64,000 bases of DNA from Bremerella sp. P1 (lineage in GTDB: Bacteria; Planctomycetota; Planctomycetia; Pirellulales; Pirellulaceae): positions 3,224,001-3,288,000 of the forward strand of contig NZ_CP118164.1 of NCBI RefSeq assembly GCF_028748185.1. The letters run 5' to 3'. The position numbers and the translations under genes were made by a program. Shown in pieces: positions 8,380-12,560 of the stretch. Position 1 is the stretch's first letter. The number at the start of each line of letters is the position of its first letter. Below the pieces are notes generated by a model, which saw nothing but the letters and a program-made list of their open reading frames with translations, was not told the origin of the DNA and searched no databases.

Positions 8380-8694
8380 ATGTACGCGATCATTCAAGAA
8401 GACGGTAAGCAAATTAAAGTCGAACAAGGCCAAGAGCTGCGGATTGATTTCCGCTTCGAGGCTACCGCCGGCGATGCGTTGACGTTCGACAACGTTCTGT
8501 TGGTCTCTGGCGAAGACGGCGTGAAGATCGGCAAGCCAACCGTTGATGGCGCCTCGGTCAAAGCGGAAGTCGTTGGCGTCGTCCAGGGCGAAAAGCTGAC
8601 CATTCAAAAGTTCCGTCGTCGTAAGAACAGCAAACGCAAGACGGGCCATCGTCAGCTCTACACCAAAGTGAAGATCAACGAGATCGTTGCTTAA
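8380..8694 (+). CDS. rplU: 50S ribosomal protein L21 (bL21)
   Basis: 104 residues, the family's normal size. MYAIIQEDGKQIKVEQGQ is the classic L21 start; the C-terminal basic patch KFRRRKNSKRKTGHRQ followed by a T-K-V-K-I strand is the L21 23S rRNA-binding motif. rpmA (L27), which usually follows rplU, is not downstream; a terminator is there instead. It has its own promoter and a leader shared with another ribosomal-type gene in this window. Confidence 0.97.
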   Translation: MYAIIQEDGKQIKVEQGQELRIDFRFEATAGDALTFDNVLLVSGEDGVKIGKPTVDGASVKAEVVGVVQGEKLTIQKFRRRKNSKRKTGHRQLYTKVKINEIVA

Positions 8695-8721: not shown

Positions 8722-8756
8722 GGAAAGCCGCAAGATTAGAATGCTTGTGGCTTTCC
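8722..8756 (+). terminator. Terminator of rplU
   Basis: GGAAAGCCGCAAG 8722-8734 pairs with CTTGTGGCTTTCC 8744-8756 (13 bp, one G-U), 9-nt loop, then TTATGCGCTCTTT. It begins 27 nt after the rplU stop. The strong stem supports transcription ending here, before the next element. Confidence 0.75.
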
Positions 8757-8832
8757 TTATGCGCTCTTTAGGTAAGTTCGCGCGATTCGAAAGGCTTCAT
8801 GCAGTTAGAGTTAAGAATTTTCAAAAAAAGAC

Positions 8833-9107
8833 TAGCCAAGCGTAAGCAATCTCGATAAGTTGTTGCCCATGCGAGAGGGAAACCCCCTCAGGGCCAGCAA
8901 TCGAAAACAAGATGGAGTCAGCTTTTCGACAGGTCATGACAGACCGCATCGCAGCAGCCCACACGCAATGGTGCGATATCCAACAGGACGTTGAAAACCA
9001 GTCAGGCAACTATTTGGGGATGGACTCGGCTTAGCAAATATCTATCGCTTGACTGCTACTTAGACAGTGCCCTGCAGTATTCACCCTACTGCAGGGTACT
9101 GTTTTTT
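8833..9107 (+). ncRNA. Candidate structured small RNA between rplU and dgkA
   Basis: A stretch lying between the rplU terminator and a second, strong plus-strand terminator, with no good gene. Long-range pairing closes it: TAGC 8833-8836 with GCTA 9055-9058, CAAGCG 8837-8842 with CGCTTG 9046-9051, TAAGC 8843-8847 with GCTTA 9029-9033. Inside are GCCC 8865-8868 with GGGC 8891-8894 enclosing GAGGG 8875-8879 with CCCTC 8885-8889, and ATCGCA 8948-8953 with TGCGAT 8972-8977. The T-tailed terminator at 9065-9107 serves only a plus-strand transcript, and the next gene is on the minus strand. It does not match the conserved cores of tmRNA, SRP RNA or RNase P RNA that I know; a 6S-like RNA is possible. 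A 40-codon open frame (8912-9034) lies inside but looks non-coding. Confidence 0.5.
9065..9107 (+). terminator. Strong orphan Rho-independent terminator
   Basis: A 15-bp stem: 9065-9079 pairs with 9087-9101 (one G-U), loop TTCACCC, then six T residues. The plus-strand gene before it (rplU) already has its own terminator 300 nt earlier, and dgkA is convergent. On the minus strand no T tract follows, so it marks the end of an unannotated plus-strand transcript. Confidence 0.88.
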
Positions 9108-9135
9108 CTTGAGCACCGCTGCGGACGATCGTTGG

Positions 9136-9528
9136 CTAGTTGGCTAGTGGTGGACTCCACCAAAACCAAAACGGTTGCCAGAACAAAAAGAAGCCCACAC
9201 CGACAGCAAATAGGCTGCTCGTCAGGACGGCCGCACTACCGATGTCTAAGGCAATTCGGATGTGCTCGTTCGGTTGATCATCGACCGCCTTGGCCAAGCA
9301 CTCAATCGCCGTGTTGAATAGCTCAGCGACGATTACAGAGCCGATCGTGAGGATTAAGACCGACCAGCGGCCGTAATCGAATTGAAGCAGTGCAGCACCA
9401 GAGAACGCGAGAGCAGCCGCAGGTAGGTGAACAGCGAAGCTCCCTTCGCTGCGTATCGCCCAAGCAAGTCCCGAGAATGCCAGGCCGAACTTGCGGATCC
9501 AGCCGCGAGGTGTCATTTCGTTCTTCAT
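9136..9528 (-). CDS. dgkA: Diacylglycerol kinase (undecaprenol kinase type, DgkA family)
   Basis: 130 residues from ATG 9528, preferred over a TTG seven codons upstream because GAGG precedes it. Three transmembrane helices (~33-52, ~55-75, ~100-120) and the signature AELFNTAIECLAKAVD with the catalytic Glu, plus the ARI/ALDIGSAAVL segment of the family. It phosphorylates diacylglycerol or undecaprenol at the inner membrane, recycling lipid from envelope glycan synthesis. It starts 26 nt after the lptD-like gene ends, so the two are probably one operon with an envelope role. Confidence 0.9.
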   Translation of the reverse strand: MKNEMTPRGWIRKFGLAFSGLAWAIRSEGSFAVHLPAAALAFSGAALLQFDYGRWSVLILTIGSVIVAELFNTAIECLAKAVDDQPNEHIRIALDIGSAAVLTSSLFAVGVGFFLFWQPFWFWWSPPLAN

Positions 9529-9554
9529 CGCGATCTGATCCTCAGGCAAACGCG

Positions 9555-12500
9555 TTACTCGAGCCCGTAAGCCCCCAGCGGTGGCAAAGGCTCGCCGTTG
9601 ATCTTGCTGTATTGTCCGGTCGCAAAGAATCGGGGTTCAAAGTTAATGCCAATACCGACATTGTTCCGGCTGGTATCGACGTTGAAGTTGAATGTGAACA
9701 TGCTCGATTCGCCGATTCGGGTCAGGAAGATATTCTGACCCAGATTCGTGTTCTCTTTCAGGTCGTAGGCCGTTCCCAGCCCGCCAAACCACTTTTCGCT
9801 CAATCGATACTGTAGCGATGCGACGATCAACTGGGTCTCGAACGGTTGAATTGTGTTGGTATAGCTGAGGTAAAGGTTTCCGATCTGTGTGCGGTTGATA
9901 TAGCTACCGACCGTGATGGTCTGTAGGCCATCGTCAAACAGGTCCCAGAAACCGTTCGAGAAGACATTGAAACGATTGCCGATCTGCCAGTCGAATTGAT
10001 AGTTCATCAGGCCGACGGTCTCACCGAAGTTGTCTCGATCGGCGTCAGGGAACAAGGTGCCACCCACATCAAACTTGATCCAGTCAATGATCTTCTCGTT
10101 GCCAGGACCGCCACGTTTGGTCTGCCAGGTTTGTCGCAGCTGAAGATTGGCCGCCGCGACATCATCGGCGATTTCACCCACAGGCGAGGTCACCCATCCT
10201 TGCTGATTCGTACGGAAGGCGTAGTAGCGAGGATCGACTGCGTTGGGGACAGGCGTGCCGGCAGGAAGGCCGTAGGTGTTGAACTTGAAGCGACGCTGGA
10301 AAGCCTCTTGCGAGTCATCGTTGATATTGTTGTAGATCGCCATACGCGAGAGGTCTTGGCTCGAGTCGGCGTAGTAGAGGTCGCCATAGAGCGTGACCTT
10401 ATGCGCGATGCCATTGATGTTCAGCAACTGGCTTTGAGCGGCTCGATTGACGCTCCAGGCCATGATGCTGCCGCGAATACCCCCTTGAGCATATCCCCGC
10501 AGCAGATCATCGCCGTTAATGTCTTGTCCCTGGTAAGTAACATCCCCTAGGGCATACGGGGTTATCTTCGAGCCAAACAATTCCATGGGAAGATCGATTT
10601 CGTGTCGCGTTGTGCCTACCAATCCTTCTACATCGACTTCGTAGGCAAGCGGATCGTACGTGGCGGCGTCGACTGGGTCTTCTGGTGCAGTCGAAGGTCT
10701 CAGGCGAGCGTAGCCAATCGACGAGTGCGAGAAATAGGTCAAGCGATCGAATAGCAGAGGTTGTCCCAGCATGTAGTGATCGAGCTTGGGCATCCACTCG
10801 GTCTGCATGAAGAAGTCGTTCACGCGCGACGAACCGTAAATATTGAAGCTCTGGTTGTCCACAAGCTTCTTAAGCTCGAACGACGTGTCGAAATCTTTCT
10901 GGGTGTCCCAGTCCTTTTCGTAGTAAGACTCAAGGAAATTACGGTCAGAAATCAAACCAAGTTCGCCGGTGAATTGCCAGTCGAAGAAGGTCATCTGGCG
11001 GTGACGCCCCCACACACGACCACGTAAATCGGTCTCAGGTGTCAGGTCGCGTCGATCGGCCCCCAAGTTATCTTTGCCAGTGTCGTAGATCCCCCACGCA
11101 TCCAGGAAGCCAGTCGCCGGATTGTTGAAGTAGGGGAAATACGTCTGGTTGAAATTGAAACGTGTGCCGACGCCAACGCCGCGTTCCGATAGGAAGTCGA
11201 GGTCGGTGACCCACTCGGTGCCTTCCCAAGGTTGGTCGATCCCCAGGATTTCGTAGTTGTCGAACTCGCTGCGGACCTGGAATCCAAAGACGTCATCGTT
11301 CTTGAAGCTGATCTTGTTTAAGTAGAAGACCGGATCATTGATGTCGGCGGAAAGGACCGGCCAGTAAAACACCGGGTAGCCACCAAAGTAGAGGGTGTTA
11401 TTCCGCGAAGTCGCCAGGCGTTTGTGGTCGATCTTCGGCTGACCCGTCAGTGGATCGATCTGTACTTCGCCCGTAATCGGGTTCATGACAGTCGACTGCT
11501 GGTCGGTGTATTCGATCTGGTTCGACTGGAACCAATAGCGTGGCACGCCCATGCGGCTGGTGGTGATCGCCGCACCAAATGCCTGGTAGCGATCTCGATT
11601 CACTCGCTGCAGAACATCAGCCTTCAGGCGGACCAGGCCCTGGTACTCTGGCACCGGGGTTAACAGTTCGGCGTTCAGGATCGTGCCATATTCTTCGGCG
11701 ACGTTGTAATACATGCGTTCGGCATAGACGACCTGCTCGCCTTGGCGGAAAACGACGTTGCCTTCCAGGTACAGCTCGTAAGCGCCATCACCAGTGACCC
11801 CTTCGGGGCTGGTCAATCCTTCAATCCCGTTCTTTGACCAGACAATCGCACGATCGGCAAGGAGGCTCACCGTATCGAGTTCGCTCAGCCCCTCAACAAT
11901 CAGGTTCATACCGGCGTCGAACTTGGCAATCGTTTCGCCGGTGTTCGGATCAGTATCGACTTCCAGCTGATAGCCATTGGTATAGCGTTGTAAGAGGCGA
12001 ACTCGAATCTCTGGCTGGGCAATCGAAATGGCCGGCGGCATCGGCTGGCCTGCTTCGAATTGGATTTGCTGAATGGGGGCCTGGATCGGTTCTTTCGGTG
12101 CGAAGTCTTCGTCCGATGGCTGTGCATTACGGCCACGGTGATAAATGGCCGGAGCTACCGCAGGAGGAGCTTTGGTCGGATCGACGGGCAATTGAATACG
12201 CGAGGTCGTGTAGAGTTGCCCCAGCCACGATGTGTCTTCCAGACGAACCTGGCCCGCTTCCGCATCGCGGTAGGTAACATTGACCTGGTTTTCGAGGTAG
12301 ACGGTGACCTTGTGAGGGACTAAGCGAAATGGCTGGGCGTACTCGATCCAAAGTACGGCGTCTTTTCCTTTCAACACCGTCTTGTCTTGGACGATCTCGC
12401 AATCGCCACGCAAGATCCAGACTTCTTGCTCACCATCTTGCCAGTGACGCGCGTCGTTGGCGCGAATGTAGATCGGTCGTGTCGCGTCTGATTGGGGAAG

Positions 12501-12560
12501 ATGAATTTCGGCGAACGATGTTGCCGATAAGATCCCAAGCAAGACCCACGCCGCGCACAT
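9555..12560 (-). CDS. lptD: LptD/OstA-like outer-membrane lipopolysaccharide assembly protein
   Basis: 1001 residues. A short signal peptide (AAWVLLGILSATSFA) is followed by an OstA-like β-jellyroll (~25-110) with a GD-C-E-I-V and KGKDAVLWI pattern, a linker, a second OstA-like module (~215-350, with YELYLEGNVVFRQG and VVYAERMYYN), and a long aromatic-rich C-terminal region (~350-1000) ending in alternating strands typical of an outer-membrane barrel. The family inserts lipopolysaccharide into the outer leaflet. Two OstA-like modules rather than one is unusual against the proteobacterial form. It is cotranscribed with dgkA; the GT-C gene precedes it at 226 nt. Identity as true LptD is inferred from architecture. 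Confidence 0.8.
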   Translation of the reverse strand: MCAAWVLLGILSATSFAEIHLPQSDATRPIYIRANDARHWQDGEQEVWILRGDCEIVQDKTVLKGKDAVLWIEYAQPFRLVPHKVTVYLENQVNVTYRDAEAGQVRLEDTSWLGQLYTTSRIQLPVDPTKAPPAVAPAIYHRGRNAQPSDEDFAPKEPIQAPIQQIQFEAGQPMPPAISIAQPEIRVRLLQRYTNGYQLEVDTDPNTGETIAKFDAGMNLIVEGLSELDTVSLLADRAIVWSKNGIEGLTSPEGVTGDGAYELYLEGNVVFRQGEQVVYAERMYYNVAEEYGTILNAELLTPVPEYQGLVRLKADVLQRVNRDRYQAFGAAITTSRMGVPRYWFQSNQIEYTDQQSTVMNPITGEVQIDPLTGQPKIDHKRLATSRNNTLYFGGYPVFYWPVLSADINDPVFYLNKISFKNDDVFGFQVRSEFDNYEILGIDQPWEGTEWVTDLDFLSERGVGVGTRFNFNQTYFPYFNNPATGFLDAWGIYDTGKDNLGADRRDLTPETDLRGRVWGRHRQMTFFDWQFTGELGLISDRNFLESYYEKDWDTQKDFDTSFELKKLVDNQSFNIYGSSRVNDFFMQTEWMPKLDHYMLGQPLLFDRLTYFSHSSIGYARLRPSTAPEDPVDAATYDPLAYEVDVEGLVGTTRHEIDLPMELFGSKITPYALGDVTYQGQDINGDDLLRGYAQGGIRGSIMAWSVNRAAQSQLLNINGIAHKVTLYGDLYYADSSQDLSRMAIYNNINDDSQEAFQRRFKFNTYGLPAGTPVPNAVDPRYYAFRTNQQGWVTSPVGEIADDVAAANLQLRQTWQTKRGGPGNEKIIDWIKFDVGGTLFPDADRDNFGETVGLMNYQFDWQIGNRFNVFSNGFWDLFDDGLQTITVGSYINRTQIGNLYLSYTNTIQPFETQLIVASLQYRLSEKWFGGLGTAYDLKENTNLGQNIFLTRIGESSMFTFNFNVDTSRNNVGIGINFEPRFFATGQYSKINGEPLPPLGAYGLE

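Follow-up and report, generated by a model that had tools for sequence, protein, structure and literature searches.

A candidate structured noncoding RNA between rplU and dgkA in one planctomycete genus, with a possible link to CsrA

The window analyzed here is a 64,000-nucleotide stretch of planctomycete DNA, corresponding to G000:C1:3224001-3288000, in which a conserved block was located 3′ of rplU and facing dgkA (Table 1). The dgkA reading frame matches PF01219 (E 1.4e-24, covering 9139-9525). Upstream of rplU, the ORF at 6314-8155 matches PF10150 (E 3.6e-97) and encodes a protein of the RNase E/G family, so that an RNA-processing enzyme is encoded just before rplU and the RNA candidate. 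Beside dgkA lies an ORF of 1001 aa (9555-12560, minus strand) for which Pfam gave nothing at E 0.001 and that we take, by eye, to resemble an outer-membrane LPS-assembly protein. A search with a crude rpmA motif, which had no control of its own, found rpmA beside rplU at none of 30 loci. Two short features were also observed around the block. Directly after the rplU terminator hairpin, a TATGCGC-like stretch (8757-8765), with TGCG in all nine members of the genus, forms a conserved exception within an otherwise variable linker, and a 9-base perfect inverted match connects 8831-8839, at the RNA 5′ end, with 9132-9140 in the stop region of dgkA.

Table 1. Features of the rplU-dgkA interval, in window coordinates.
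Feature	Position	Strand	Details
rplU, ribosomal protein L21 (neighbor)	8380-8694	+	PF00829, E 1.6e-34
rplU terminator hairpin	8722-8756	+	arms 8722-8734/8744-8756; seen in the alignment of 9/9 genus members
Possible promoter element, weak	8809-8823	+	GTTAAGAAT in this species; 5/15 columns invariant
Structured noncoding RNA candidate	8824-9106	+	conserved block and pair counts; 5′ end placed at the onset of conservation
5′ strand CGAUAA-UU--U-CC, possible pseudoknot with head loop 9017-9028	8853-8867	+	10 pairs, two helices
Multiloop domain	8870-8953	+	closed by 8870-8874 (UGCGA)/8949-8953 (UCGCA)
Hairpin 1	8875-8889	+	core 8875-8879/8885-8889; two-sided changes in 3/5 pairs
Hairpin 2	8901-8929	+	two-sided changes in 4/8 pairs; invariant A-N-GGA in loop
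Hairpin 3, GGUC/GACC	8932-8945	+	paired in 9/9, never varies
Small hairpin, AGGAN loop, resembles CsrA site	8981-8993	+	4 bp in 7/9; one sequence has 3 bp and another 2 bp
Long hairpin	8999-9055	+	stems 8999-9007/9047-9055 and 9011-9015/9036-9040
Intrinsic terminator, loop UCACC invariant	9063-9106	+	two-sided changes in 5/17 pairs; 97.4% of cells paired
dgkA, prokaryotic diacylglycerol kinase (convergent neighbor)	9136-9549	-	ORF; start codon uncertain

The original prediction for this region was of a gene for a structured RNA that has a terminator to itself, lying between that terminator and the one of rplU in a stretch without a good gene. Each of these points held up: the element occupies the same place in all nine genus genomes, contains covarying helices, shares no ORF and matches no Rfam family. 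Both terminators appear in the alignment of all nine members, the second with arms 9064-9079/9087-9102 and six T at 9102-9107. No ORF of 25 or more aa is common to the nine sequences, and two of them have none of that length on the plus strand. A conserved short protein, named in the prediction as the alternative that could account for conservation, was looked for and rejected, as ORFs of this size differ in place between species. Across the whole window, no Rfam 15 family was found at its gathering threshold, and relaxing the limit to E 10 brought up no more than three matches touching the region, all at chance level. The prediction had seen no tmRNA, SRP RNA or RNase P RNA here, and rightly so: the models for tmRNA (RF00023), RNase P RNA (RF00010) and small SRP RNA (RF00169) gave no match at the locus and scored over their cut-offs elsewhere in the genus genomes, the first two in 9/9 and the third in 8/9. 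Its suggestion of a 6S-like RNA was not supported, as RF00013 gave no match at the locus even at E 10. None of the nine genus genomes had an RF00013 match over cut-off, and 6S has been listed as absent in two related species (Wehner et al. 2014, as cited in a passage of PMC5673643). As a side observation, the genome carrying the window has a pair of matches resembling small SRP RNA, separated by about 40 bases (G000:C1:6743522-6743617 and 6743660-6743745); such pairs occur in 6/9 genus genomes, the second match each time falling below the family cut-off.

Conservation has well-defined borders. Among the nine sequences, 111 of 283 columns are invariant in the block, compared with 6/52 in the linker (8757-8808) and 0/24 in the bases that follow the block. 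This drop on both sides of 8824-9106 counts for a gene of its own. Mean pairwise identity of the RNA candidate is 73% (lowest 65%). The corresponding values in the same genomes are 88% (RNase P RNA) and 94% (tmRNA); the candidate thus varies more than these RNAs and resembles a regulator more than a core RNA.

To the extent that the searches could detect it, the element belongs to one genus. A DNA search of 60 genomes returned matches in nine, which are all nine genus genomes (own included), and in none of the 51 outside the genus. All nine copies adjoin rplU and eight are followed by dgkA; at the ninth locus (L008; its genome, G002, is 68% complete), dgkA was not found by tblastn in the available stretch. 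A covariance model, R1, run against 241 genomes of the family recovered all nine members of the genus with E-values no higher than 4.5e-76. The other 232 gave no strong match under filters stricter than those of a parallel 40-genome search, and the seven weak ones, at E 0.002-0.09, have the appearance of chance hits, being by eye coding-like or unrelated DNA that lacks the full motif set. With the laxer filters, R1 gave one extra match in the 40 genomes (G038, E 0.0145), as well as four further opposite-strand matches that reflect the palindromic terminator. A scan of 21 rplU loci from other genera gave three short matches, with E-values of 0.013, 0.27 and 3. Finally, a 23-base head-loop pattern, searched in genome contigs in a way that may omit records near the window, hit a single contig, consistent with C1 of the genus member G002. 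Because search sensitivity is limited, absence outside the genus is valid at that sensitivity only. Within this scope the RNA candidate was found in the genus only, in line with the planctomycete-specific RNA originally named as a possibility.

The consensus structure was evaluated in an alignment of the nine sequences fitted to R1 (A2), which is biased towards the structure named when fitting, and in an unfitted alignment (A1). The 70 pairs of A2 are 93.4% standard, compared with 89.5 in shuffles and 35.7 to 43.3 in versions slid along the sequence. Two-sided changes occur in 17/70 pairs versus 8.1 in shuffles (sd 1.8; 0/500 as high), and the covariation score is 0.190 versus 0.118. One of the five whole-structure measures, the number of further pair types, showed no excess (36 versus 33.2, with 57/500 shuffles as high). 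In A1, two-sided changes were counted in 17/66 pairs versus 7.2 in shuffles. Because the nine sequences are related, several of them closely, the shuffles overstate the evidence somewhat. The segment 8760-9110 also folds better than 100/100 of its dinucleotide shuffles (z -3.25). Taken together with the borders of conservation, these comparisons leave us highly confident that a structured noncoding RNA gene, presumably transcribed, exists at this position.

The central part of the predicted fold is a multiloop domain whose closing stem is paired in 97.8% of cells, with one mismatch in one sequence; its changes are to G-U only, none being two-sided. Within this domain, the core of hairpin 1 is what stands of a longer hairpin first drawn at 8865-8894, the outer CCC/GGG of which is, by eye, missing in some relatives. 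A second proposed hairpin, at 8948-8977, was likewise retained in part: its CGC/GCG segment (8964-8966/8973-8975) is present in 9/9 and never varies, but the remainder is not found in all nine, and 8949-8953 can pair with 8870-8874. For hairpin 3, the CGC/GCG hairpin and the multiloop stem, the evidence is conservation and not covariation. The hairpin 2 loop displays GGA at 8914-8916 within an A.GGA that is kept in 9/9 with N varying, and the small hairpin contains CAGGANG in 9/9 and ACAGGANGU in 7/9 of the genus sequences. In the long hairpin, two-sided changes affect 2/9 pairs of the outer stem and 2/5 of the inner one. By eye, the outer stem is mostly replaced in four species with complementarity kept. 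Its pairing in A2 reaches 78.8% of cells, because two sequences (L035 and L036) are misaligned there; judged by eye, both re-pair with different letters. The terminator loop region (9080-9086), with UCACC in 9/9, is more conserved than a plain terminator needs, and TTCACCCT, from the same loop, occurs once in the window.

The helices of 8833-8847 with 9029-9058 that had been proposed to close the whole structure fared poorly. One of them, UAAGC/GCUUA, is by eye lost in several relatives, and UAG-CAA/UUGACUG is paired in 88.9% of cells with no two-sided change, which is not above shuffles. We rejected this closing helix as being the main fold. Its 3′ arm doubles as that of 8999-9007/9047-9055, where two-sided changes do occur. 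Since the closing helix and the long hairpin share this arm (UUGACUG has two possible 5′ partners), both conformers could exist, and the closing helix may be an alternative one. A further tertiary element was considered for the head loop of the long hairpin, GGGAYGGANUCG, which is near-invariant and includes an A-Y-GGA (A.GGA in 9/9). The two helices that it could form with the 5′ strand are paired in 100% and 92.1% of cells. Because just one of these pairs has a two-sided change, we put the pseudoknot forward as a proposal only.

The recurrence of GGA in these loops may point to CsrA. According to portions of PMC10729762, a CsrA site is A(N)GGA presented in a hairpin, and Planctomycetes are among the holders of CsrA. 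In the RNA candidate, GGA outnumbers every other invariant triplet (4 versus 0.88 expected, P 0.0068, letters shuffled among invariant columns), and A(N)GGA is invariant at 3 places (P 0.0046, same shuffling), with P 0.0076 and 0.0038, respectively, in a first run; this test was post hoc and would fail correction for 64 triplets. Control RNAs had no such excess (RNase P RNA, 7 versus 6.71 expected; tmRNA, 6 versus 5.19). The sites fall in loops of the consensus fold, with a predicted openness in single-sequence ensembles that is near average and uneven. In excerpts of PMC7652899, the CsrB repeat is given as CAGGA(U/A/C)G and the SELEX consensus as RUACARGGAUGU. The former is matched in 8/9 genus sequences, N being G in the ninth, and the small-hairpin site resembles the latter less one base. 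As ACAGGANGU recurs five more times in the window, always within ORFs of 150 or more aa, the motif alone is weak evidence. Potential partners are plentiful: CsrA family matches number 7 in the window's own genome (G000) and 5 to 11 per genus genome (n=9), and they are found, several per genome, in 40/40 relatives examined. Three CsrA sequences of G000 that were read through have L4 and R44, the CsrA residues highlighted in a figure legend of PMC7652899. Two of the G000 matches, at 382548 and 386507, are on opposite strands and separated by about 4 kb.

Based on these features, the reading that we rank first is that transcription from near 8824 to the terminator at 9063-9106 yields an RNA of about 280 nt, which folds into a three-hairpin multiloop domain followed by the AGGAN-loop hairpin and then the long hairpin, whose head loop may dock onto the near-invariant 5′ strand. 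The invariant GGA sites in the hairpin 2 loop, the CAGGANG of the small hairpin and the A-Y-GGA of the head loop would bind CsrA-type proteins, and the outcome would be either a lowered level of free CsrA, with effects on its targets, or CsrA control of the RNA itself. As a whole, the statement that an independent noncoding RNA gene acts in trans through predicted CsrA binding is tentative, and we regard it as plausible without calling it probable. Several observations count against it. Only three or four GGA sites are conserved, CsrA is present in 40/40 relatives while the RNA candidate is in the genus only, and formation of the pseudoknot would hide the GGA of the head loop. An unlikely elaboration makes use of the last point: the RNA could be a planctomycete CsrA sponge with an origin separate from CsrB/RsmZ and a different architecture, in which the pseudoknot hides the head-loop GGA and folding competes with CsrA binding, so that the sponge is switchable for one or more CsrA paralogues, with the UUGACUG arm part of the switch.

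Two other modes of action are close rivals of the CsrA proposal. The RNA may act in trans by base pairing with mRNAs and not via CsrA, using as a seed either the UCACC of the terminator loop, which may serve this role, or the unpaired 5′ end AAAAAGACUAGNCAA. We consider this a real though somewhat doubtful possibility: UCACC is invariant and the 5′ end mostly so, features that the fold explains in neither case, but a conserved multiloop domain and head loop would seem to exceed the needs of a seed RNA. Only slightly more doubtful is a structured RNA with another protein, a small molecule or a function so far undescribed, the GGA excess then being due to chance or to the fold. The long invariant stretches (head loop and CGAUAA-UU strand), the possible pseudoknot and the lack of an Rfam match would all suit such an RNA, whereas its limitation to one genus and the lack of a specific pointer to any partner would not. 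It is improbable that the block is the 3′ untranslated part of the rplU mRNA, or an RNA derived from that transcript, instead of a gene. It does lie on the same strand, 129 bases after rplU, and a scan found no consensus sigma-70 promoter just upstream of 8824; however, the intervening terminator hairpin is kept in every genus member and conservation is low in the linker that follows it. That the block is non-functional, as conserved DNA or a chance fold, is very improbable even with nine sequences only, several closely related, since two-sided changes are well above both shuffles and slid controls and conservation stops at the terminator.

By kind, the RNA is a candidate bacterial regulatory RNA absent from Rfam 15. 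In the portions of the open-licence literature available to us, no CsrA antagonist RNA was found described for planctomycetes. Some RNA work on the phylum does exist, and the part of a review that tabulates small RNAs of the PVC group has eight (PMC9029176). CsrA genes are numerous in the genus genomes, and post-transcriptional control in the phylum would become open to study through a conserved RNA gene whose fold is defined and whose binding is simple to test. Even if CsrA is not bound, this would be an RNA family that Rfam 15 does not contain.

Among described elements, the Rhodopirellula-1 motif has a table row that assigns this candidate structured RNA to Proteobacteria and Planctomycetes and gives no Rfam number (Weinberg et al. 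2010, PMC2864571). Our candidate resembles it in being structured and without such a number, and differs, as judged from that row alone, in being found in one genus only. Like 6S RNA (RF00013), the candidate is stand-alone and of regulatory size, but it consists of several hairpins and not of one long interrupted hairpin. RsmY and RsmZ are CsrA-binding RNAs. So are CsrB/CsrC and McaS, with 22 GGA in CsrB and 4 in McaS, according to parts of PMC10729762 and PMC7652899. With three or four conserved GGA sites, the candidate is near McaS and far below CsrB. It shares with these RNAs a stand-alone arrangement ending in a terminator, predicted loops that carry A(N)GGA and CAGGANG, and CsrA in the host genome; unlike them, it has an elaborate multiloop and a possible pseudoknot and matches no Rfam family. 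The RNA candidate may work like CsrB, yet we do not file it as a member of any described Rfam family.
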